From a virus: a stretch of 22,056 nucleotides of DNA. The position numbers and the translations under genes were made by a program. How positions within the stretch are numbered: position 1 is the stretch's first letter; every line of letters starts with the position of its first letter. The stretch spans positions 1-22,056 of the IMG/VR virus record IMGVR_UViG_3300009428_003824, one strand, 5' to 3'. Positions 83-21,764 of the stretch are shown in pieces. Under the pieces are notes generated by a model. The model saw only the letters and a list, made by a program, of their open reading frames with translations. It made no database searches and was not told where the DNA came from.

Positions 83-1423
83 ATGGCAGAGAAATTAGTA
101 ATCGTAGGTGCTGGTGTTGCAGGTGTTAATACTGCTACCAAACTCATAGACAACGGCTTCCCAGGAGAAAACATTACAATTATTGATATGGGTAAAGATC
201 CATATAATAGACCTTATTCAGAGGTAATGACTGGATTTTTAGGTGCTGGTGGTTGGAGTGATGGTAAATTAACTTACCACACAGCAATTGGAGGTCATAT
301 GGCTAAATATTGTGGTGAAGAAAAAGCAATGGAATTGTTTGATGAGGTAATTAGTAACTTTAAACGTTTCCATCCTAAACCAGAAGAAGTACAATGTTCA
401 GATCCTCAAGCAGAACCAGACTTTATTAAACCATATTTTGGTCTACGTTTATTCCCAGTATGGCATGTTGGTACAGATTACCTACATGAGATTGGTAAAA
501 ATTGGTATAATTTTTTAGTTGAAAATGGTGTTAAATTCCATTGGGAAACTAAAGTAGATGAAATTTGGTTTGAAGACGATAAACTAATGGCAGATAATGG
601 TTCAAACCCATATTTTATAAATTATGATCGTTTAATGTTTGCTGTTGGTAAATCAGGTATTGATTTTGGTAAAAAATTAGCAGATAAATACTCATTACCT
701 ACTGAACCAAAACCAGTACAAGTTGGTATTCGATTTGAAGCTCCCCAAAAACACTTCCAAAAACTAATTGATATTAGTTATGACTTTAAATTATATAGAA
801 AATTCGAGGAAGGAGTATCGCTTCGTTCATTCTGTACTAACAATAATGCCGCTTACGTTGCAGTTGAAGAAACGTATGGAGATCACAGTTACAACGGACA
901 TGCTAAAAAAGATGAAGCATTTAGGAATGATATGACTAATTTTGGTATTTTAATGGAAATACCAGGTATTGAAGAACCATTTGCTTGGTCTAGAGAATTA
1001 GTATCTAAGGTAAATAAGGATGGTACTGGTTTATATTATAGTCCTACACGTAGCCCATCTACAACATCTGAAGGTGAAGATGTAAGTGCGGTTGTAATTG
1101 ATAGTACACAAATGGATGAAGTAAGAGATGCATTCCATGGTTACTATAAATACATTGATGATTTTATTGATGATATGAAAAAAGTATTCCCAACATTAGG
1201 TGATGATTGGGGTGTTTATGTACCTGAAGTTAAATATCTTTCTCCAGAACCACTTGTAGATTATAATACATTATCATTAAATGATTATTCTAATATTCAT
1301 TTTGTAGGTGATGCATTAAGTGCAAGAGGAATTACAGTATCAGGGGCACAAGGAATTTATGTTGCTGAATCTATTTTAAAATTTGATCAAAAAGAATACC
1401 CAGATTTTCACGAACATTTTTAA
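83..1423 (+). CDS. FAD-dependent dehydrogenase/oxidoreductase (COG2509-like)
   Basis: This 446-residue protein starts with a Rossmann dinucleotide-binding motif (VGAGVAG, residues 8-14) that would bind the ADP part of FAD. Residues about 53-63 (LGAGGWSDGKL) match the G-G-x-x-SDGKL signature I remember from COG2509 'uncharacterised FAD-dependent dehydrogenases'. A second FAD-contact region lies near the C-terminus (VGDALSARG 408-416, then SGAQGIYVAESIL). Bacterial relatives, as I recall them, are often longer at the N-terminus; this one begins directly at the FAD motif. The ATG follows an A-rich stretch with no Shine-Dalgarno. It is the first gene of an accessory cassette upstream of the head genes and has its own promoter-like element. 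The substrate is unknown. The flavoprotein call is firm, the subfamily less so. It is probably a host-derived auxiliary metabolic gene. Confidence 0.8.
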   Translation: MAEKLVIVGAGVAGVNTATKLIDNGFPGENITIIDMGKDPYNRPYSEVMTGFLGAGGWSDGKLTYHTAIGGHMAKYCGEEKAMELFDEVISNFKRFHPKPEEVQCSDPQAEPDFIKPYFGLRLFPVWHVGTDYLHEIGKNWYNFLVENGVKFHWETKVDEIWFEDDKLMADNGSNPYFINYDRLMFAVGKSGIDFGKKLADKYSLPTEPKPVQVGIRFEAPQKHFQKLIDISYDFKLYRKFEEGVSLRSFCTNNNAAYVAVEETYGDHSYNGHAKKDEAFRNDMTNFGILMEIPGIEEPFAWSRELVSKVNKDGTGLYYSPTRSPSTTSEGEDVSAVVIDSTQMDEVRDAFHGYYKYIDDFIDDMKKVFPTLGDDWGVYVPEVKYLSPEPLVDYNTLSLNDYSNIHFVGDALSARGITVSGAQGIYVAESILKFDQKEYPDFHEHF

Positions 1424-2175: not shown

Positions 2176-2732
2176 ATATAGTATTTTGTCTCCCTGGTAG
2201 AGAATTTTCAAATAAATTTTTAAATAGTTGGACTAGTTTAATTCATAATATCCCTAAAGATTGGAGATGGGCTCATGTTACAGGTTATGTTCCTAACATT
2301 ACTTATAGTAGGCAATCTTTATTAGATCGAGCTAAAATGTTTAAACCAACTCACTATATGTGGATTGATAGTGATCAAGTATTTAACTCAAACCAATTCC
2401 TTCAATTAACTACTCATGACCTACCCATTATTTCAGGTTTATATAAAAAAGAAAATTTGCCTGACCAATTTGCTGGTTGTAAATTAAACGGAGAAACATT
2501 AACTGTTAGTGATATAGAAGGTGCTGATAAGCCAATTGAAGTATTAGCTAATGGTATGGGTTTTATGTTAGTTAAAAGGGAAGTATTTGATTTAATAGAA
2601 AAACCATTTGAGTTTTTAAATGAGCATCAATGGGAAGATTTTGGTTTTGCTGATAAAGCTAGAAAATTAGGATTTAAATCTTATATTGATCCTGCTATTA
2701 TAGTTGGACATGAAAAAAAAGTAGTAATATGA
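2172..2732 (+). CDS. Small GT-A-like glycosyltransferase (GT2-like)
   Basis: This 186-residue protein has the marks of a compact GT-A glycosyltransferase. WIDSDQVF (64-71) gives the DxD metal and nucleotide-sugar site, D66 and D68. NGMGFMLVKREVF (127-139) and EDFGFADKARKLG (155-167) match the acceptor-side and catalytic Asp/Glu region of GT2-type enzymes. H180 is a plausible third metal ligand. It is shorter than typical GT2 enzymes (about 230-300 residues), as is common in phages. The start overlaps the cupin stop as ATGA, indicating translational coupling. Likely targets are host surface glycan, phage DNA or a virion protein; the sequence does not say which. Confidence 0.72.
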   Translation: MNIVFCLPGREFSNKFLNSWTSLIHNIPKDWRWAHVTGYVPNITYSRQSLLDRAKMFKPTHYMWIDSDQVFNSNQFLQLTTHDLPIISGLYKKENLPDQFAGCKLNGETLTVSDIEGADKPIEVLANGMGFMLVKREVFDLIEKPFEFLNEHQWEDFGFADKARKLGFKSYIDPAIIVGHEKKVVI

Positions 2733-3259
2733 AAATAGGTTTATGTGGTACTATGAGTGTAGGAAAAACTACACTTGTTAATGCTCTTCAAGAGTTAGAT
2801 TATTTTAAAGATTATAGTTTTAGAACAGAGCGTTCTAAGGAACTAATGGCACAAGGTATTCCATTAAATACTGATTCAACATTATTGGGTCAAACTGTTT
2901 TTTTAGCTGAACGTGCCAGTGAATTAATGCAGGAAAACATTATCACAGATAGAACTGTTATTGATGTGATTGCGTTTGCTCGTGCTTCTAAATCTATGAA
3001 TTATGTAGATAAAGAAGATTTTACAGATTACGCTAAACATTTAATTAGAGAGTATGATTATATTTTTTATGTGTCTCCTGAAGGTGTAGAAATTGAGGAT
3101 AATGGTATTAGAGAAACTGATGCTGAATATAGAAAAGAAATAGATATGATTATTGATCATACAATTATGAGAAATCGTCATAGAATTAAAAATCTAATTA
3201 AAATCAGTGGTTCTACAGAAGAACGAATATCTAAGATTATAAGTAGTATTAATTCTTAA
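2729..3259 (+). CDS. P-loop NTPase, nucleoside/nucleotide kinase-like (AAA_28/NadR-like)
   Basis: This 176-residue protein has a Walker A loop at residues 7-15 (GTMSVGKTT). A later segment, TDRTVIDV (73-80), matches the 'DR..xD' substrate and Mg site of P-loop nucleoside and nucleotide kinases. The order, with YIFYVSPEG near 111-119 and an Arg-rich lid-like region (IRNRHRIK-like stretch late in the protein), resembles the AAA_28 group, which includes the ribosylnicotinamide kinase part of NadR. The substrate cannot be told from sequence. It overlaps the glycosyltransferase stop by 4 bases and is the last gene of the coupled set. It could act on NAD precursors, deoxynucleotides or another small molecule. 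Confidence 0.7.
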   Translation: MKIGLCGTMSVGKTTLVNALQELDYFKDYSFRTERSKELMAQGIPLNTDSTLLGQTVFLAERASELMQENIITDRTVIDVIAFARASKSMNYVDKEDFTDYAKHLIREYDYIFYVSPEGVEIEDNGIRETDAEYRKEIDMIIDHTIMRNRHRIKNLIKISGSTEERISKIISSINS

Positions 3260-5825: not shown

Positions 5826-7697
5826 ATGGCTGATAAAAGCTTATTTAAAAGATTACAAAGATTATTCGCTTCCGATGTAGTAATTCGAAACGTAGGGGGT
5901 AATCAACTTAAAGTAGTCGATACAGATCACATCCAAACTTCTGGAGAATTTGAAACCAATGCTTTAATGGATCGATTCTCAGGAATCTATCAAAACCCAG
6001 CATCAACTTCTCTATATGGAGCTCAGTTCAATATGAACTATCAGTATCTGAGAACTTTTATTTACTCAGATTATGATTTAATGGATACAGATGCTATTAT
6101 AGCTTCTGCTCTTGATATTGTTGCTGATGAATGTACTCTTAAAAATGATATGGGAGAAATCCTTCAAATTAAATCATCTGATGAAGACATTCAGAAAATT
6201 TTATATAACTTATTTTATGATGTATTAAACATTGAGTTTAATCTTTGGTCTTGGACTCGTCAAATGTGTAAGTATGGTGATTTTTTCTTAAAATTAGAAA
6301 TTTCAGAAGAATTTGGTGTATTTAATGTAATACCATATTCAGCATACCATATTGAAAGACAAGAGAACTTTGATCCTAAAGCACCATCTAAAATACAATT
6401 TAATTATAACCCAGAAGGTATTTATGGTGGTTCTTCTTCTGGTTACTATGCAGGTCCTAGCAACGCACAAGATAGTGCTAGTACTATAACATTTGATAAC
6501 TACGAAATAGCCCACTTTAGATTATTATCAGATGTAAATTATCTTCCATATGGTCGTTCATATATTGAACCCGCTCGTAAATTGTATAAGCAATACGCAT
6601 TAATGGAAGATGCAATGTTAATCCATAGGATTGTTCGTGCACCTGAAAAACGTATTTTTTATATAAATGTAGGTGCAATTCCACCTAATGAAGTAGAAAA
6701 TTTCATGCAGAAAACCATTTCTACAATGAAACGTACTCCATTAATGGATCAGAAAACAGGTGAATACAACCTAAAATACAACATGCAAAACGTAATGGAG
6801 GATTTTTATATCCCTATTAGAGGTAATGATCAAGCAACAAAAATTGATACTACTAAAGGTTTAGAGTATGCTGCAATTGAAGATGTTGAATACTTAAGAG
6901 AAAAATTATTTGCTGCTCTTAAAGTGCCTAAAGCATTTATGGGATATGATGAAAACTTATCAGGTAAAGCTACATTAGCAGCTGAAGATATTCGTTTTGG
7001 TCGTACAATTGATAGATTACAACGTATATTACTATCTGAATTATATAAAATTGCATTAGTTCACTTATATGCTCAAGGGTATAGAGATGAGCAAATGACA
7101 AACTTTGAGTTAGGTTTAACTACTCCATCTATTATCTATGATCAAGAAAAGATTGCATTGATGAAAGAAAAAGTAGACTTAGCTTCTCAAATCATGGAAA
7201 ACAAATTACTTCCAACGGATTGGATTTATGATCATATCTTCCACTTTAGCGAAGACGAATATGAAGAGTATAGAGACTTAATAGCTCAAGATCAAAAACG
7301 TCAATTCCGTATGAATCAAATTGAAGCTGAAGGTAATGATCCACTTACAACAGGTCGTTCATATGGTACACCACATGATTTAGCCTCACTATATGGTCAA
7401 GGTAGAATGGAAAATGATCCTGCTAATGTACCTGATGGTTATTCCCCAAATGATAAAAAACCATTAGGTCGTCCTGAAGAAAAAGTATCTAATATTAATA
7501 CTCAAGACAATGCATTTGGTAAAGATAGATTAGGTAGAAAAGAAATGAAAGTAGACGATCAACCTGGTTTTAATGAATCGGCTAGTAAAAATTATGCTAA
7601 AAATCGTTCATTACTTGAAGCTATGAGTAAAGAATTAGTCTTTACATCAGATAAGAAAAAAGAATCATTATTAGATGAATCAAATATTAAAGAGTAA
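5826..7697 (+). CDS. 20: Portal protein (T4 gp20-like)
   Basis: This 623-residue protein forms the dodecameric ring at one capsid vertex, through which the terminase pumps DNA. The core matches T4 gp20: an N-terminal region leading to DADAIIASALDIVADE-like helices, the strongly conserved PEKRIFYINVGAIPP (273-287), a following segment with MEDFYIPIRG, and FMGYDENLSGKATLAAED (371-388) before the crown helices. T4 gp20 is 524 residues; the extra length is mostly a hydrophilic C-terminal tail (about 490-623) rich in Gly, Asp, Asn and Lys. A Gly/Ser-rich insertion near 200-220 (YGGSSSGYYAG) looks like a surface loop. The start is preceded by ATATTTATAA and an A-rich leader. Confidence 0.95.
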   Translation: MADKSLFKRLQRLFASDVVIRNVGGNQLKVVDTDHIQTSGEFETNALMDRFSGIYQNPASTSLYGAQFNMNYQYLRTFIYSDYDLMDTDAIIASALDIVADECTLKNDMGEILQIKSSDEDIQKILYNLFYDVLNIEFNLWSWTRQMCKYGDFFLKLEISEEFGVFNVIPYSAYHIERQENFDPKAPSKIQFNYNPEGIYGGSSSGYYAGPSNAQDSASTITFDNYEIAHFRLLSDVNYLPYGRSYIEPARKLYKQYALMEDAMLIHRIVRAPEKRIFYINVGAIPPNEVENFMQKTISTMKRTPLMDQKTGEYNLKYNMQNVMEDFYIPIRGNDQATKIDTTKGLEYAAIEDVEYLREKLFAALKVPKAFMGYDENLSGKATLAAEDIRFGRTIDRLQRILLSELYKIALVHLYAQGYRDEQMTNFELGLTTPSIIYDQEKIALMKEKVDLASQIMENKLLPTDWIYDHIFHFSEDEYEEYRDLIAQDQKRQFRMNQIEAEGNDPLTTGRSYGTPHDLASLYGQGRMENDPANVPDGYSPNDKKPLGRPEEKVSNINTQDNAFGKDRLGRKEMKVDDQPGFNESASKNYAKNRSLLEAMSKELVFTSDKKKESLLDESNIKE

Positions 7698-7708
7698 TAT
7701 CTCCTTAT

Positions 7709-7718
7709 ATATTTATAA
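7709..7718 (+). promoter_or_regulatory. Late-promoter-like motif ATATTTATAA (site 3)
   Basis: Exact copy 15 bases before the ATG at 7734. The wider stretch 7697-7720 matches 11617-11640 at 20 of 24 positions (both begin ATATCTCC), so the element may be longer than the core 10-mer. Confidence 0.5.
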
Positions 7719-7733
7719 TAAATCCTATTAGGA

Positions 7734-8591
7734 ATGAATATTAAACATTCAAAATACAAAAATACTGGTATTTTATTTGAACTATTGGTTCGTCGAGTAA
7801 CGGCAGATACCCTTAATGGTGAAGACTCAGAGTCTTTAAAACTTATCCAAGAACACTTTATTAAAAGTGAACTCGGGAAAGAGTATAAATTATATGAAAC
7901 TCTTACTAAAAACACCTCTTTAACTGAATCTAAAGCTAATGTAATGGTACAAACATTACTTGAAGCTTCTAAAAAGTTAAATCGTAGTGCGCTTAAGAGA
8001 GAAAAATATAATCTCATTAATGAAATTAAAAAGCATTATAATATAGAAGATTTTTTTAAGACAAAACTTTCACACTATAAAACACATGCTGCTTTTTATA
8101 TGTTAAATGAAATTCAAAACACTGAAGCTTTAGTAGACACAGATGTTATTATTAGTAACAAAATGACTCTCCTAGAGCACCTTTCAACCTCTGAAATCAG
8201 TACTGAAAAAGTTGAAGCTGAAATACTACAAGAATTTCAAACATACGATAAAGATACTCGTATGCTTACTTATAGGATTTTAATGGAAAAATTCAATGGT
8301 AAGTATAATGGCTTACATGATAGTCAAAAAGAAGTATTAAGACAGTATGTCAATTCAGTAGATTCAACTCCAGTATTAAAAGAATTTTATAATAGTGAAG
8401 TATCTAAGATTAAATCTCAATTAAATGAGTTAATGTCTAAAATTACTGATAAAACAGTTCAAATTAAAATTAATGAAATATCTAGCTTAATTGAAGAGTT
8501 AGATAAAACATCTAAAGTTACAAGTGAAAACATTGTAAATATTCTTCAATACTTAGAATTGGTAGAAGAATTAAAAACTGCTCATGCGTAA
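7734..8591 (+). CDS. Conserved T4-like head-region protein, function unknown
   Basis: This 285-residue protein is almost all helical by composition and rich in Lys, Glu and Leu. Its first 25 residues (KHSKYKNTGILFELLVRRV) resemble proteins I remember from the structural block of marine T4-like phages, between portal and protease; no function is established there. The C-terminal part (about 225-285) has coiled-coil-like heptads. No enzyme motif, signal or membrane segment is visible. Its position between portal and prohead protease fits a prohead core or assembly role, similar in place to T4 gp67/gp68. It overlaps the next gene by 8 bases. Confidence 0.75.
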   Translation: MNIKHSKYKNTGILFELLVRRVTADTLNGEDSESLKLIQEHFIKSELGKEYKLYETLTKNTSLTESKANVMVQTLLEASKKLNRSALKREKYNLINEIKKHYNIEDFFKTKLSHYKTHAAFYMLNEIQNTEALVDTDVIISNKMTLLEHLSTSEISTEKVEAEILQEFQTYDKDTRMLTYRILMEKFNGKYNGLHDSQKEVLRQYVNSVDSTPVLKEFYNSEVSKIKSQLNELMSKITDKTVQIKINEISSLIEELDKTSKVTSENIVNILQYLELVEELKTAHA

Positions 8592-9120
8592 AGTTGGTGA
8601 TATTAAAGTAGATAGTGGTATAATAACTACTGTAACGGATATCAATTCAGAAACAGGCCAAATCTCTTGGGATGTTGATTATGCTGCGGATTATAAAAAA
8701 TTATTTAATGATATAACTGATTTAATGGATACGGCTAAGGAGATAGCAGATATTACTGAAGAGCCTTTTTTTAGAGATCATTATTTAGATATTAAAAAAC
8801 GTAGAAATGAGTTAAGAACTTATTTACGTAATAATAAAGCTAAAGAATATGCTCGTATTAAAGGTTTAGATGAAATGAGTGGAACAGGTGGTGGTGCTTC
8901 ATTTTCTACAGGCACAGGTGCTCAATATGCAACCCCCTTTGCATTCAAAAAAAAGAAAAAAATTAAAGAATCAAATCCTGGTTCAACTTTAGGTAAAGGA
9001 CCAAAAGCTGGACCTGAAGGAGTTACAGATAATTATTATTATAAATTAGGATATAAACTTGCAGCTAAACCCCACTCTACAAAAGCTATAGATGTTCGAT
9101 ATTTATGGGGGAAGAAATAA
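8584..9120 (+). CDS. Head-region protein with Gly/Thr-rich linker, function unknown
   Basis: This 178-residue protein has three parts. Residues 1-38 look like a small beta region, with a VDSGIITTVTDI stretch. Residues about 38-95 are a charged helical region. The C-terminal part begins with a Gly/Thr-rich linker (GTGGGASFSTGTGAQYATP, about 100-118), then a run of lysines (FKKKKKIKES) and a conserved-looking end (about 160-178). Such 'GTGG..F..G.G.QYATP' linkers are common in head-region proteins of marine T4-like phages. The ATG lies inside the end of the preceding gene (8-base overlap), which suggests coupled translation. The function is unknown; a prohead core or virion-internal role is inferred from position only. 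Confidence 0.72.
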   Translation: MRKVGDIKVDSGIITTVTDINSETGQISWDVDYAADYKKLFNDITDLMDTAKEIADITEEPFFRDHYLDIKKRRNELRTYLRNNKAKEYARIKGLDEMSGTGGGASFSTGTGAQYATPFAFKKKKKIKESNPGSTLGKGPKAGPEGVTDNYYYKLGYKLAAKPHSTKAIDVRYLWGKK

Positions 9121-13169: not shown

Positions 13170-15041
13170 ATGTCACAAATTCAATCCCTTTTAGAAGACG
13201 CAGGGCAAGGCTGGAAAAGCATGCAAGGCGACGCTGCTAGATTGGCTTCAAAGTGGAACAAAACAGGCTTGTTAGAAGGTCTTGCTAGTGAGCAAGATAA
13301 GAATAACATGTCTTTGATCCTCGAGAACCAAGCTAAGCAATTAGTAACGGAGGTTTCTGCTAACCCAGGTGGTGGTGCAAACAACGGTGCTGGTGCTTTC
13401 GCAGTAGGAACAGGTGCTGAGTGGGCGGGTATCGCTCTCCCATTAGTACGTAAGGTATTTGGTCAGATAGCTGCTAAGGAATTCGTTTCCGTACAGCCTA
13501 TGAACCTACCTTCAGGTCTAGTATTTTATCTAGATTTCCAATACGGTGATAATAAGCCATCTTTCCAAGTTGGTGAGTCACTTTATGGTACTTCAAACGC
13601 AGGTACTTTCCCATTCTCCACTCCAACAACCAACTTACAGTTGAACAATGCTAGTGGATCAATTGCAGGTGCTCAAGGTTTGTACGGTGCAGGTAAGTTC
13701 GCTTACTCAACCAACCAATTTTCACAATCTGTAGGTACATTAGCACTCCCAGTTGTTTCAGGATCTTTAGCTTCAAGCGGTATCGCTAAAGCTACATGGT
13801 CTGAACTTAACTATGACGGAAGATTGTCTCAATCTATCTCTAATGGTGAGATCTGGAGAGTTTCTCTTTCTCAATCAGTTATTGCTGGTGGAGCTGCTCA
13901 GGTTGGTGATCTAGATCTTGAGGCAGTAAGAGCATTCGTTGCTATTTCTGCTTCTGCTGCTGGTGTAGTTGCTGGTAGAACTACATCATCATTATCTGCT
14001 GGTGGGTTACTTCCTGCATTTACAAAAGCTGAAACTAGAAACGTTGTTGCTGCTACAGGAGTAGGTACTGCATTTATATCTTTCTTCTACACAGCATCAG
14101 GTAATACTGCTGACGTCGCCCAAAATGGTGGTCCAGGTGGAGCAGTTTCATCTTCAACTTTCAACGTATTCTATAACAAGCGTACTACAATGTCTCCTTA
14201 TCAAATTGGTGATTTTGAAGCTGGTAACACATATGCTGTTCCTAACGCTTTGAATGCTACAGAAATTGATATTCCAGAGATTAACATCCAGATGCGTTCT
14301 GATTCTATCGTTGCTAAAACGAAGAAATTGAAAGCAGTATGGACTCCAGAATTTGCTCAAGATTTGAATGCATATCAAGCTCTTGATGCTGAAGCTGAAG
14401 TAACTAACATTATGAGTGAATACATTTCATTGGAAATCGATTTAGAGATCCTTGATATGTTGATCCAAGATGCAGCTGCTGGTACTGAGTACTGGACTGC
14501 TGAGAATAATGGTGTCTTCAATAATTCAGCAAATGGATTTGCATTCCCTACAGCAACTAGTCAGACTGGTTTCTATAACACTCAAGGACAGTGGTTCCAA
14601 ACTTTAGGAACTAAAATGCAGAAATTAAGCAACAAAATCCACCAGTTAACTCTACGTGGAGGTGCTAATTTCTTAGTTTGTTCTCCAGTTGTAGCTACTA
14701 TCATCGAATCAATCCCAGGATTTGCTTCGAACTCTGATGGAGATGTTTCGAAAATGGAGTATGCCTTTGGTGTGCAGAAAGCAGGTACGATGAATAGTCG
14801 TTACACAGTTTATAAGAACCCTTACATGAACGAAAATACCATCTTGATGGGATTCCGTGGAGGTCAATTCTTAGAAGCAGGTGCTGTATTCGCCCCTTAC
14901 ATTCCGTTAATCATGACTCCTCTTATCTACGATCCAACTACCTTCACTCCGCGTAAAGGATTGTTGACTCGTTATGCTAAGAAGATGATTCGTCCGGAAT
15001 TCTATGGTAAGATCTTTGTTGGAGGACTTCAAACCCTTTAA
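13170..15041 (+). CDS. 23: Major capsid protein (T4 gp23-like)
   Basis: This 623-residue HK97-fold capsid protein matches T4 gp23 in three places. The N-terminal segment contains LILENQAKQLVTE. Residues 92-116 contain VRKVFGQIAAKEFVSVQPMN. The axial region contains SIVAKTKKLKAVWTPEFAQD followed by AYQALDAEAEVTNIMSEYI. The C-terminus ends in GKIFVGGL. T4 gp23 loses 65 residues to gp21; here the matching cut would fall after E61 (QLVTE), followed by a Gly/Asn/Ala-rich stretch. The protein is about 100 residues longer than T4 gp23; the extra sequence is a Ser/Ala/Gly-rich insertion (about 138-345), likely a surface domain. Codons favour C at third positions more than neighbouring genes, as expected for the most abundant virion protein. 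Confidence 0.96.
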   Translation: MSQIQSLLEDAGQGWKSMQGDAARLASKWNKTGLLEGLASEQDKNNMSLILENQAKQLVTEVSANPGGGANNGAGAFAVGTGAEWAGIALPLVRKVFGQIAAKEFVSVQPMNLPSGLVFYLDFQYGDNKPSFQVGESLYGTSNAGTFPFSTPTTNLQLNNASGSIAGAQGLYGAGKFAYSTNQFSQSVGTLALPVVSGSLASSGIAKATWSELNYDGRLSQSISNGEIWRVSLSQSVIAGGAAQVGDLDLEAVRAFVAISASAAGVVAGRTTSSLSAGGLLPAFTKAETRNVVAATGVGTAFISFFYTASGNTADVAQNGGPGGAVSSSTFNVFYNKRTTMSPYQIGDFEAGNTYAVPNALNATEIDIPEINIQMRSDSIVAKTKKLKAVWTPEFAQDLNAYQALDAEAEVTNIMSEYISLEIDLEILDMLIQDAAAGTEYWTAENNGVFNNSANGFAFPTATSQTGFYNTQGQWFQTLGTKMQKLSNKIHQLTLRGGANFLVCSPVVATIIESIPGFASNSDGDVSKMEYAFGVQKAGTMNSRYTVYKNPYMNENTILMGFRGGQFLEAGAVFAPYIPLIMTPLIYDPTTFTPRKGLLTRYAKKMIRPEFYGKIFVGGLQTL

Positions 15042-15129: not shown

Positions 15130-15861
15130 ATGGCATCTAACCATCATAATGATGAGGTTTTTAAACAAAAAAGAAAACCTAAAACACCAATTAAGTTTAA
15201 AGTAACTCTTAATGAAGAACAAAAAATAGCTAAAGCAAAAATTTTAGCAAATACAGTTACTTTATTAGCGGGTTCCGCAGGTTCAGGAAAAACATTTCTA
15301 GCGTGTCAAATTGCGCTTGAAAAATTATTCATGAAAGAATGCGATAAAATAATCATAACGCGACCTACTGTGAGCAAGGAGGAAATCGGCTTCTTACCGG
15401 GTGATCTCCGCGAAAAAATGGACCCATGGGTGCAACCTATATATCAAAATATGTATGCCCTATATGATAAAGTTAAAATTGAAGCTCTTATACAAGAGGG
15501 CAAAATTGAAATTGTCCCTGTATCATTTATGCGTGGTAGAACCTTTTTAGACAGCGTTGTAATTGTTGATGAAGCTCAGAATGTAACACACCAACAAATG
15601 CAAATGATTGTTACTCGATTAGGACTTCGTTCTAAAATGATTATATGTGGTGATGACCATCAAGTAGATTTAAAATCAAAGAAAGATTCTGGGTTTAGAT
15701 TTTTATACGCATCTTCTCGTAAAATAAAAAATATGTGTGGTATTTCTTTATTAACAAATCATAGAGATTCTATTGTAGAAGATTTAATTAATTTGTATGA
15801 TGAAGCCGAATCAAATGGAATTAACCTAGGTACATCAGGTTCTAGTGGAAAATATAAATAA
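15130..15861 (+). CDS. phoH: PhoH-family ATPase
   Basis: This 243-residue protein is a single PhoH-type P-loop domain. Walker A is GSAGSGKT (48-55), Walker B is VVIVDEAQ (143-150), and TRPTVSKEEIGFLPGD (77-92) is a hallmark stretch of the family. PhoH proteins are frequent in marine T4-like phages; ATPase activity is predicted, and roles in RNA handling or phosphate stress have been proposed but not settled. The basic N-terminus (residues 9-19, EVFKQKRKPKT) may bind nucleic acid. It lies between capsid and fibre genes, with its own promoter-like site right after the capsid terminator. The end of the gene contains TATAAATA by chance of coding (YK-stop). Confidence 0.93.
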   Translation: MASNHHNDEVFKQKRKPKTPIKFKVTLNEEQKIAKAKILANTVTLLAGSAGSGKTFLACQIALEKLFMKECDKIIITRPTVSKEEIGFLPGDLREKMDPWVQPIYQNMYALYDKVKIEALIQEGKIEIVPVSFMRGRTFLDSVVIVDEAQNVTHQQMQMIVTRLGLRSKMIICGDDHQVDLKSKKDSGFRFLYASSRKIKNMCGISLLTNHRDSIVEDLINLYDEAESNGINLGTSGSSGKYK

Positions 15862-16444: not shown

Positions 16445-16524
16445 ATGGCTTTAACATACAGACAAACAAAAGGATCAGCATTAACCATACAAGAGTTAGA
16501 TGCTAACTTTGCATTTTTTACAGG
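16445..16524 (+). repeat. Duplicated 80-base 5' segment, copy A
   Basis: Identical to 16938-17017 except for one base (AAC against AAT, position 63 of the gene, silent). It starts exactly at the ATG; upstream sequences do not match. Confidence 0.95.
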
Positions 16525-16915
16525 TTCACAATCCATCTCAGGATCCACAGTAATTAGTGGTTCACTTACAGTTGATGGGCCCTTATATGTAACAGGTTCA
16601 TCAGTAATATTTGATACAGATAATGGTGCTTATATTCAATTCCAAGTTTCGGGTACAGCTGATTTTTCAAGAGATGTAATAGTTCGAGATGATTTATTTG
16701 TATATGATGATTTTATTGCTTCAGGATCTGATAATCAAATAGGTAATGCAGCTGGTAATGCTTTATTACAAGTAACAGGCTCTTTGTCAACATCTGGATC
16801 AGTAATATTTACAGTTTTACCTACAACAGAACCAACAACAACTGGTACCATATGGATATCAGGTAGTAGCCTCAACCACCCTAACTCTGGGTATTTAATG
16901 ATTAAGAAAGCATAA
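16445..16915 (+). CDS. Fibre-like structural protein with 'LTxxELDANF' head motif (copy A)
   Basis: This 156-residue protein starts with a segment ending in LTIQELDANFAFF (about 13-25). This type of motif begins many T4-like fibre or fibre-attachment proteins ('TkgspLT..ELDnNF'). It is followed by repeated GS-turn strands (SISGS, ISGSLTVDG, VTGSS, VTGSLSTSGS), typical of beta-helical trimeric fibres. The first 80 bases of the gene match those of the next gene with one silent difference. It lies 10 bases after the preceding gene and probably shares its message. The likely role is a short tail or head fibre, or an adaptor for one. Confidence 0.72.
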   Translation: MALTYRQTKGSALTIQELDANFAFFTGSQSISGSTVISGSLTVDGPLYVTGSSVIFDTDNGAYIQFQVSGTADFSRDVIVRDDLFVYDDFIASGSDNQIGNAAGNALLQVTGSLSTSGSVIFTVLPTTEPTTTGTIWISGSSLNHPNSGYLMIKKA

Positions 16916-16937: not shown

Positions 16938-17017
16938 ATGGCTTTAACATACAGACAAACAAAAGGATCAGCATTAACCATACAAGAGTTAGATGCTAAT
17001 TTTGCATTTTTTACAGG
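16938..17017 (+). repeat. Duplicated 80-base 5' segment, copy B
   Basis: Partner of 16445-16524 with one silent difference. Confidence 0.95.
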
Positions 17018-17234
17018 ATCTCACTCTATTTCCGGGTCTTCAACCTTACCAGTAATAATAAGTGGTTCATTAGAAGTAACAGGTTCTTTTGGTGTTAATT
17101 CGGGTCCAGTTAATATGACTGGAACTTCATTTATAATTACTGGATTACCAACATCAGAACCAGCAACATCAGGTTCACTATGGTTATCTACAGCAACGGG
17201 AGCAGGTTCAAGATTACTAGCAGTTAAAGTTTAA
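16938..17234 (+). CDS. Fibre-like structural protein with 'LTxxELDANF' head motif (copy B)
   Basis: This 98-residue protein is a shorter partner of the preceding gene. Residues 1-27 are identical between the two proteins, and then the sequences diverge. The remainder repeats the GS-turn pattern (SISGSS, ISGSLEVTGS) and ends with LPTSEPATSGSLWLS, which parallels LPTTEPTTTGTIWIS in copy A. The two proteins therefore share both ends and differ by a middle deletion or insertion. The probable role is a short fibre or adaptor subunit. A terminator follows 21 bases after the stop. Confidence 0.72.
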   Translation: MALTYRQTKGSALTIQELDANFAFFTGSHSISGSSTLPVIISGSLEVTGSFGVNSGPVNMTGTSFIITGLPTSEPATSGSLWLSTATGAGSRLLAVKV

Positions 17235-20039: not shown

Positions 20040-21764
20040 ATGAGTAACGTAAGATTTTTAGATCAAGTCCCTATAGGTTCATTTAATGGAACTGGAAGTG
20101 GAGGCGGCGGTGCAGGACCTACAGGTGCACAAGGTGCTCCAGGTTCAAGTGGTTCTTCTGGTTCATCAGGTTCATCAGGTGCTTCAGGTTCCCAAGGTGC
20201 TCAAGGTGTTGCTGGTTCTTCTGGTTCATCCGGTGCTTCAGGATCATCTGGTTCATCAGGTGCTACAGGTGCTCAAGGTGCATCAGGTCCTTCAGGTGGT
20301 GGAGGTTCTTCAGGTTCATCAGGTTTATCTGGTTCATCGGGTTCAAGTGGTTCTTCTGGTTCATCCGGTGCTGCTGGTTCATCAGGTTCATCAGGTGCTA
20401 CAGGTGCTCAAGGAGATGCAGGTCCTTCAGGTGGTGGAGGTTCTTCAGGTTCATCAGGTTTATCTGGTTCATCAGGTTCAAGTGGTGCTAGTGGTTCATC
20501 AGGTTCTTCAGGATCAACTGGAGCTCAAGGAGACGCAGGCTCATCAGGTTCATCAGGTGCTACAGGTGCTCAAGGAGATGCAGGTCCTTCAGGTGGTGGA
20601 GGTTCTTCAGGTTCATCAGGTTTATCGGGCTCATCAGGTTCAAGTGGTGCTTCAGGATCCTCTGGTTCATCAGGTGCTACAGGTGCTCAAGGTGCATCAG
20701 GTCCTTCAGGTGGTGGAGGTTCTTCAGGTTCAAGTGGTGCCTCAGGATCATCAGGTTCATCAGGTGCTACAGGTGCTCAAGGAAACGCAGGCTCATCAGG
20801 TTCAAGTGGTGCTTCAGGATCATCAGGTTCATCAGGTGCTGCAGGTGCTGCAGGTGCTCAAGGAGACGCAGGCTCATCAGGTTCAAGTGGTGCTAGTGGT
20901 TCATCAGGTTCATCCGGTATTTCTACTGGTACTTATACTAATGCAACAGCTACTCCAATAAATTTCCCAAGTGATGATGACCCAAATATCCCTGCAGGAA
21001 CTACATTTAATCTCAAGACTTTTCCTGAAATGATGGATTTAATGTTATATCCGGAATTAAATCCATCATTAACAAACCCATCAAATGGACTTAGCATATC
21101 TCCTTCAGGTCTTAGAGAAATTGGAGAAGTAATAACTACAATTACATTAAGCGCTACTTTTAATAAAGGATCTATTAGTCCTGCTTATGGTACTACTGGA
21201 TTTAGAAGTGGTAATCCAAATCTTTATGTTTATACAGGAACAGATGCTACAAACAATCCTAGTACTGCATTAACAAATACAGAAACTATTTCTGATTACA
21301 CATTACTTCAAGGATCTAATTCATGGACAGGAGCAGTATCTTTTGATGTAGGTCCTCAACCACTTACGAGTAAAGGTAATAACTTTAGTAGCCCATTATC
21401 AGCGGGAACTACAGGTGTTATTACACGAACTATAACAGGTGTGTACCCAACATTTGCTACAACTGTAGCCATTGGTACCCTAACGAAACAATCGTTACAA
21501 TCCATGAGTACTTTAATTCAGGTATCATTAGTAGCTGAAACAGGAAACGGAGATAAACAAACAGTAGATATCCCAAATGCTTTTTCTACAATAACAGGAT
21601 TACAACAATTTAATACACTTAGTAGTACTTATGATGATATTTTATTATCTACATTTACTACAAGTGCTGTTACACAAACTATACAGGGTATTAGTGTTAA
21701 TTACACAAGGTATACGTATAATGGCGCCACAATAGGTGCAAGAATATTAAGATTTACAGTATAA
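20040..21764 (+). CDS. Collagen-like (Gly-X-X) fibre protein
   Basis: This 574-residue protein has three parts: a short N-terminal segment (1-25, MSNVRFLDQVPIGSF then a Gly run), about 90 Gly-X-X triplets without a visible break (26-295), and a C-terminal domain of about 275 residues. The X and Y positions are almost all Ser, Ala, Thr and Gln (GSS, GAS, GAT, GAQ), with few Pro, unlike animal collagen. Such GSS-rich fibres are common in environmental T4-like phages and probably form a rigid triple helix. The C-terminal domain (from about GTYTNATATPINF) is Thr/Ser-rich and beta-like and may be the trimerising or receptor-binding tip. It follows the neck genes; a second fibre gene starts 4 bases after its stop. 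Confidence 0.85.
   Translation: MSNVRFLDQVPIGSFNGTGSGGGGAGPTGAQGAPGSSGSSGSSGSSGASGSQGAQGVAGSSGSSGASGSSGSSGATGAQGASGPSGGGGSSGSSGLSGSSGSSGSSGSSGAAGSSGSSGATGAQGDAGPSGGGGSSGSSGLSGSSGSSGASGSSGSSGSTGAQGDAGSSGSSGATGAQGDAGPSGGGGSSGSSGLSGSSGSSGASGSSGSSGATGAQGASGPSGGGGSSGSSGASGSSGSSGATGAQGNAGSSGSSGASGSSGSSGAAGAAGAQGDAGSSGSSGASGSSGSSGISTGTYTNATATPINFPSDDDPNIPAGTTFNLKTFPEMMDLMLYPELNPSLTNPSNGLSISPSGLREIGEVITTITLSATFNKGSISPAYGTTGFRSGNPNLYVYTGTDATNNPSTALTNTETISDYTLLQGSNSWTGAVSFDVGPQPLTSKGNNFSSPLSAGTTGVITRTITGVYPTFATTVAIGTLTKQSLQSMSTLIQVSLVAETGNGDKQTVDIPNAFSTITGLQQFNTLSSTYDDILLSTFTTSAVTQTIQGISVNYTRYTYNGATIGARILRFTV
20115..20924 (+). repeat. Gly-X-X coding repeat with longer sub-repeats
   Basis: Nine-base triplet units (GGT TCA/TCT TCA) run for 810 bases. 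A longer block beginning GGTCCTTCAGGTGGTGGAGG recurs at 20286, 20421, 20583 and 20700, spaced 135, 162 and 117 bases. All spacings are multiples of nine, so copy-number changes keep the frame and the triple-helix register. Confidence 0.9.

Follow-up and report, generated by a model that had tools for sequence, protein, structure and literature searches.

The window analysed here, the whole 22,056-nucleotide stretch of IMG/VR record IMGVR_UViG_3300009428_003824, belongs to an uncultured T4-like marine phage. An uninterrupted open reading frame with an ATG start (positions 83-1423, + strand) encodes a predicted 446-aa FAD-dependent oxidoreductase of the COG2509/VP0956 type (OX). On the same strand, this gene encodes the GxGxxG motif of the first FAD-contact region (GAGVAG, residues 9-14, positions 107-124), of which G9 and G11 are kept in nearly all relatives, the family signature GAGGWSDGKL (residues 54-63, positions 242-271), an RSFC motif (positions 824-835), and FVGD in the second FAD-contact region (residues 407-410, positions 1301-1312). 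In 44 sequences, G54, G56, S59, D60 and K62 of the signature, R248, F250 and C251 of RSFC, and G409 and D410 of FVGD are invariant, while G9, G11, S59, D60, K62, G409 and D410 are invariant or nearly so across the aligned phage and cellular relatives. The original prediction that both FAD-contact regions and the SDGKL signature are kept agrees with these alignments, and C251 is a candidate active-site residue.

A promoter-like element belonging to OX itself had also been proposed. Exact matches to the motif TTTCGTATATTTA lie upstream of OX (positions 50-62, + strand) and, as a second copy, upstream of the next gene, g91 (positions 1448-1460, + strand). Within the window alone, matches to TTTCGTATATTTA with up to 2 mismatches are not significantly enriched (4 vs 2.0 expected); across phage loci, the motif TTTCGTATATTWA precedes OX, 10-29 nt 5' of its start, in 99 of 163 cases, against 2 of 163 once the upstream stretches are shuffled. 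A conserved promoter-like motif thus stands about 20 nt from the OX start. In G001, a 166-kb relative, 14 copies of TTCGTATATT lie on one strand against a single copy on the opposite strand, the pattern expected of a phage promoter.

Downstream of OX, the + strand encodes g91 (positions 1503-1778), a 91-aa protein linked to OX that accompanies it, together with NK, in all 14 terL-anchored OX loci; a cupin protein (positions 1780-2175; Pfam Cupin_2, phrog_7851), which is optional in the interval and part of some loci only; a protein matching phrog_1574 (positions 2172-2732), mostly absent from relatives and possibly glycosyltransferase-like, judging from a DSD motif; and NK (positions 2729-3259; AAA_28, phrog_2107), a P-loop protein resembling deoxynucleoside kinases or the NadR kinase. 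The best PDB matches of an NK profile are deoxyguanosine kinase (E 1e-6) and NadR (E 2.7e-6). For g91, searches of Pfam, PHROG and NCBIfam gave no matches, and its predicted model is poor (pLDDT 59). The terL gene (4216) lies 2.8 kb downstream of OX, and after it come the genes for the portal, a protease, a scaffold-like protein and the major head protein, confirming the placement of OX ahead of the head genes.

Other features of the window include a PhoH-like ATPase (positions 15130-15861; Pfam PhoH, E 1.4e-61) between the major head protein and the tail-region genes, two adjacent ORFs (positions 16445-16915 and 16938-17234) with the common N-terminus MALTYRQTKGSALTIQELDANFAFFTGS, probably a structural gene duplicated in tandem, and a 574-aa protein (positions 20040-21764) with a long collagen-like Gly-Ser-Ser repeat region.

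Family and fold

COG2509 membership of OX was tested via PDB 3NLC (VP0956), a COG2509-type structure. 3NLC is the top PDB match for OX, both with the single sequence (E 3e-7) and with the 44-sequence profile (E 6.5e-46). The AlphaFold model of OX is confident (mean pLDDT 91) and aligns with 3NLC at Z 32.2 over 388 residues (2.8 A, model range 1-440), the next fold scoring Z 19.6; the 3NLC fold is matched at full length, the N-terminal part of 3NLC aside. The N-terminal dinucleotide-binding part of OX passes the Pfam Pyr_redox_2 cutoff, and the phrog_12409 'dehydrogenase' profile also matches OX (E 3.2e-21, best stretch residues 4-266). OX has no match to PF21688 (FAD-depend_C) at E 1, whereas several cellular relatives do match it; in the region covered by PF21688, OX and 3NLC still have the modelled fold in common. 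The HI0933-like profile (PF03486) gives 13.8 bits, below its cutoff of 50. Viral predicted structures with the OX fold include a 'COG2509' uncultured-phage protein (43% identity), a Campylobacter phage protein (22%) and a Terrestrivirus giant-virus protein (18%).

Together with the FAD-contact motifs and SDGK signature of the COG2509/VP0956 type, the profile matches and the model identify OX as a predicted new member of a known, uncharacterised family, as had been proposed. The two outcomes named beforehand as counting against the assignment, best matches to an unrelated flavoprotein family and loss of key FAD residues, did not occur. The literature searched contained no role for this family in phages, in keeping with the original statement.

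Conservation, linkage and descent of the gene

OX relatives are encoded on at least 597 viral contigs, the best 80 of which are 75-100% identical to OX over the best segment. Across the 115 loci that contain both OX and terL, identity to the window averages 75.7% (OX), 74.6% (terL), 70.2% (portal) and 66.7% (NK), and OX exceeds terL in 63 of 115 loci and portal in 82 of 106, most of the 115 having been retrieved by OX similarity, which somewhat favours OX. Conservation at the level of the terminase argues that the reaction matters during infection. Pairwise dN/dS of OX is 0.13-0.20 in nine of ten relatives and 0.37 in L231, the most divergent one, for which synonymous changes may have reached saturation; these estimates indicate purifying selection.

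Anchoring on terL removes the retrieval bias toward OX. Of the 15 terL-anchored loci whose upstream sequence extends beyond 5.5 kb, 14 contain OX, g91 and NK together and one (L344) contains none of them. Instead of the lone gene of one phage envisaged originally, OX is a near-universal gene of a large uncultured marine phage group. The kept gene order is OX, g91, (cupin), (phrog_1574), NK, g117, spanin-like, terL and portal, with local variations. L343 has an insertion of related genes that separates OX from g91; given this insertion, the contig L301 probably ends before OX, and it was rejected as a case of OX loss. L263 encodes a 535-aa OX-g91 fusion at a poly-A run, which may be a frameshift artefact. 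In L204, L238 and L239, a 42-43% identical variant fills the place of OX, and in L204 a 58-aa piece resembling the usual OX (positions 437-613) lies upstream of the divergent full-length gene (positions 1571-2881, 43% identity), an apparent replacement in place.

By terL, the nearest cultured phages are Flavobacterium phage immuto (59.7%) and Microcystis phage Mel-JY01 (52.5%), which makes a Bacteroidota host likely; a profile search detected OX in neither. A tree with Bacteroidota homologues had been suggested; OX is not close to the sampled copies from Labilibaculum and Marinifilum, and no cellular protein among the nearest ones retrieved exceeds 29% identity. In a tree of 114 rows, a branch with support 99 divides the marine and Campylobacter phage sequences, all on one side, from every other sequence. 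With no fixed root, a very long Campylobacter branch (6.0) and cellular sampling confined to the nearest 80, a single clade of phage OX copies is supported by the sequences, short of proven. A CxxC-containing Cys insert before SDGK is found in 74 of 80 cellular copies, in 0 of 174 marine phage copies and in 0 of 7 Campylobacter phage copies; it is also missing from 3NLC and a few cellular copies. Unannotated human-gut 'Bacteriophage sp.' records (L083-L088) also contain OX-like genes; where placed in the tree, these genes lie among Bacillota and have the CxxC motif. The records are probably bacterial contigs and were not counted as phage homologues.

Large relatives contain further genes of interest. 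FolE, QueD, QueE, QueC and a phrog_19058 protein (L351-L352, L363-L364, L379-L384, L186) occur in large OX-bearing marine phages and in immuto, and phage CP220 also has QueC, QueE, FolE and phrog_19058; the marine OX-bearing phages may have 7-deazaguanine DNA. In the 166-kb relative, locus L177 has a NodU-like carbamoyltransferase match (positions 6477-8686) and a second FAD-type protein, halogenase-like by eye (positions 13280-14494).

Candidate roles

With the fold, FAD regions, purifying selection and linkage of OX demonstrated by modelling and sequence comparison, our leading guess, put forward tentatively, is a purine-deoxynucleotide oxidoreductase; a host-redox enzyme is equally open. 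As a purine enzyme, OX would be expressed from its own promoter within the linked set of OX, g91 and the kinase NK, and would use FAD, possibly with the invariant Cys251, to reduce or oxidise a purine base or (deoxy)nucleotide in a two-electron step. NK would then feed the nucleoside, or the reaction product, to the dNTP pool, and the benefit would be guanine-type nucleotides supplied or altered for phage DNA. Among the roles originally floated, a nucleotide one has the most circumstantial support, from three weak leads: the linked deoxynucleoside-kinase-like NK, the Campylobacter phages with deoxyinosine and the purA neighbours of cellular copies, while nothing was found for action on a lipid, pigment or tRNA. 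Against a purine role, NK matches NadR almost as well as deoxyguanosine kinase, the Campylobacter phage copies lack a detected g91 or NK homologue beside them, and the relatives immuto and L344 live without OX.

The purA lead comes from six cellular OX copies (Caldisericota, several Bacillota) that lie directly or up to two genes upstream of a sequence-recognisable purA, the largest family (n=6) in an analysis that took in all neighbour families. The order rplI-dnaB-purA is common in Bacillota, and the adjacency may reflect it. The distribution lead comes from OX homologues in 40 Campylobacter phage records, including NCTC12673 and F336. Deoxyinosine is reported in the DNA of NCTC12673, NCTC12669 and F336, and full replacement of dG by dADG in CP220 and CPt10 (PMC8306585); a profile search detected no OX homologue in CP220. 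A gene-content comparison of four marine records (some incomplete), one Fletchervirus, one Firehammervirus and immuto, conceived after the Campylobacter matches and hence a lead and not a test, gave 74 families common to at least three of the four large marine OX-bearing records. Nine of these occur in PC14, CP220 and immuto alike, and only OX and a weak clamp-loader-like match are found in PC14 yet in neither CP220 nor immuto. As one genus is set against one other, the deoxyinosine correlation is a single evolutionary contrast, noticed after the fact. A specific version, in which OX would be a flavin-dependent reductase removing or altering the 2-amino group of a guanine (deoxy)nucleotide, e.g. 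dGMP to dIMP with Cys251 and FAD, and would lie behind the deoxyinosine DNA of the Campylobacter Fletcherviruses, is very unlikely; if true, marine phage DNA would also have altered guanine. Thymidylate synthase co-occurs with OX in 5 of 10 cases, which is uninformative.

That OX is an auxiliary metabolic enzyme altering host redox or central metabolism, acting on a quinone, ferredoxin or small organic substrate, is a possibility we hold as tentatively as the purine one. The OX fold is common to many dehydrogenases and reductases, cellular copies are found in many anaerobes, and the OX sequence shows no obvious separate NAD(P)H-binding domain, making another electron partner plausible; however, phage OX copies appear to form a clade of their own, strongly conserved and linked to g91 and to a kinase of nucleotides or nucleosides, and OX is no recent host gene, unlike many auxiliary metabolic genes. 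Were NK a nicotinamide riboside kinase, the linked genes could instead be a salvage set in which OX acts on, or together with, the pool of nicotinamide or flavin cofactors. This is rather unlikely: the NadR match of NK (E 2.7e-6) argues for it, as does a nucleotidyltransferase-like protein, encoded between g91 and NK, whose matches are of the NadR and FAD-synthase types, but deoxyguanosine kinase slightly outscores NadR, and the nucleotidyltransferase is present in just three of 64 loci examined.

Less probable again is a step of preQ0/7-deazaguanine DNA modification on a deazaguanine nucleotide, to which the frequency of QueE (8/10), QueC (7/10) and FolE (7/10) in large OX-bearing records would point. 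These genes do not track OX, since preQ0 genes are present in immuto and CP220, which lack OX, and QueC, QueE and FolE are absent from PC14, which has it, and the pathway was rejected as the main explanation. For TGT/DpdA, Pfam PF01702 matched in 0 of 13 records, a profile that a divergent DpdA could escape. An RNA-modifying flavoprotein of the MnmG or TrmFO kind is slightly more improbable than even the dGMP-to-dIMP proposal: some cellular relatives are weakly similar to Pfam GIDA, but OX itself scores 10.2 bits against MnmG/GidA (PF01134), below the GIDA cutoff of 22.1, and the window has no tRNA gene. The constant position upstream of terL and portal could suggest that OX has been recruited to packaging or head assembly in a non-catalytic role; with the FAD and signature residues kept, terL and portal retained without OX in immuto and L344, and the Fletchervirus copy near dUTPase and endolysin, this is the least probable of the readings weighed here.

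Comparison with known flavoproteins and phages

A COG2509/VP0956-type flavoenzyme is near-core in a large uncultured marine phage group and recurs in Campylobacter phages. The deoxyinosine-DNA correlation offers a concrete, testable substrate class, and the OX substrate, once solved, would give a function to a family of many bacterial phyla. 3NLC and the cellular COG2509-type proteins have the GxGxxG, GAGxxSDGK, HxGT, RxFC and GD positions in common with OX, whose N-terminus is about 100 residues shorter than that of 3NLC and which lacks the CxxC-containing Cys insert of most cellular copies. The HI0933/BaiN-like and aminoacetone-oxidase flavoproteins (2GQF, 2I0Z, 4CNJ) have a related FAD fold (Z about 19.5), but their alignments with OX cover just 224-264 residues. 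The best viral predicted structure is UniProt A0A6J5M0P4, annotated 'COG2509', from an uncultured Caudovirales phage (TM-score 0.88, 43% identity to OX); it is less than half identical to the main OX group and is probably the divergent OX variant of L204 and L238. The 'dehydrogenase' of Campylobacter Fletcherviruses, a genus that includes PC14 and NCTC12673 (NCTC12673 gp008, PC14 gp065; phrog_12409), belongs to the same family at 24% identity to OX, and resembles marine OX in lacking the Cys insert and falling on the same side of the tree. Its neighbourhood differs: no g91 or NK homologues were detected beside the Campylobacter phage copies, and the Fletchervirus gene lies two genes away from a dUTPase and near endolysin.
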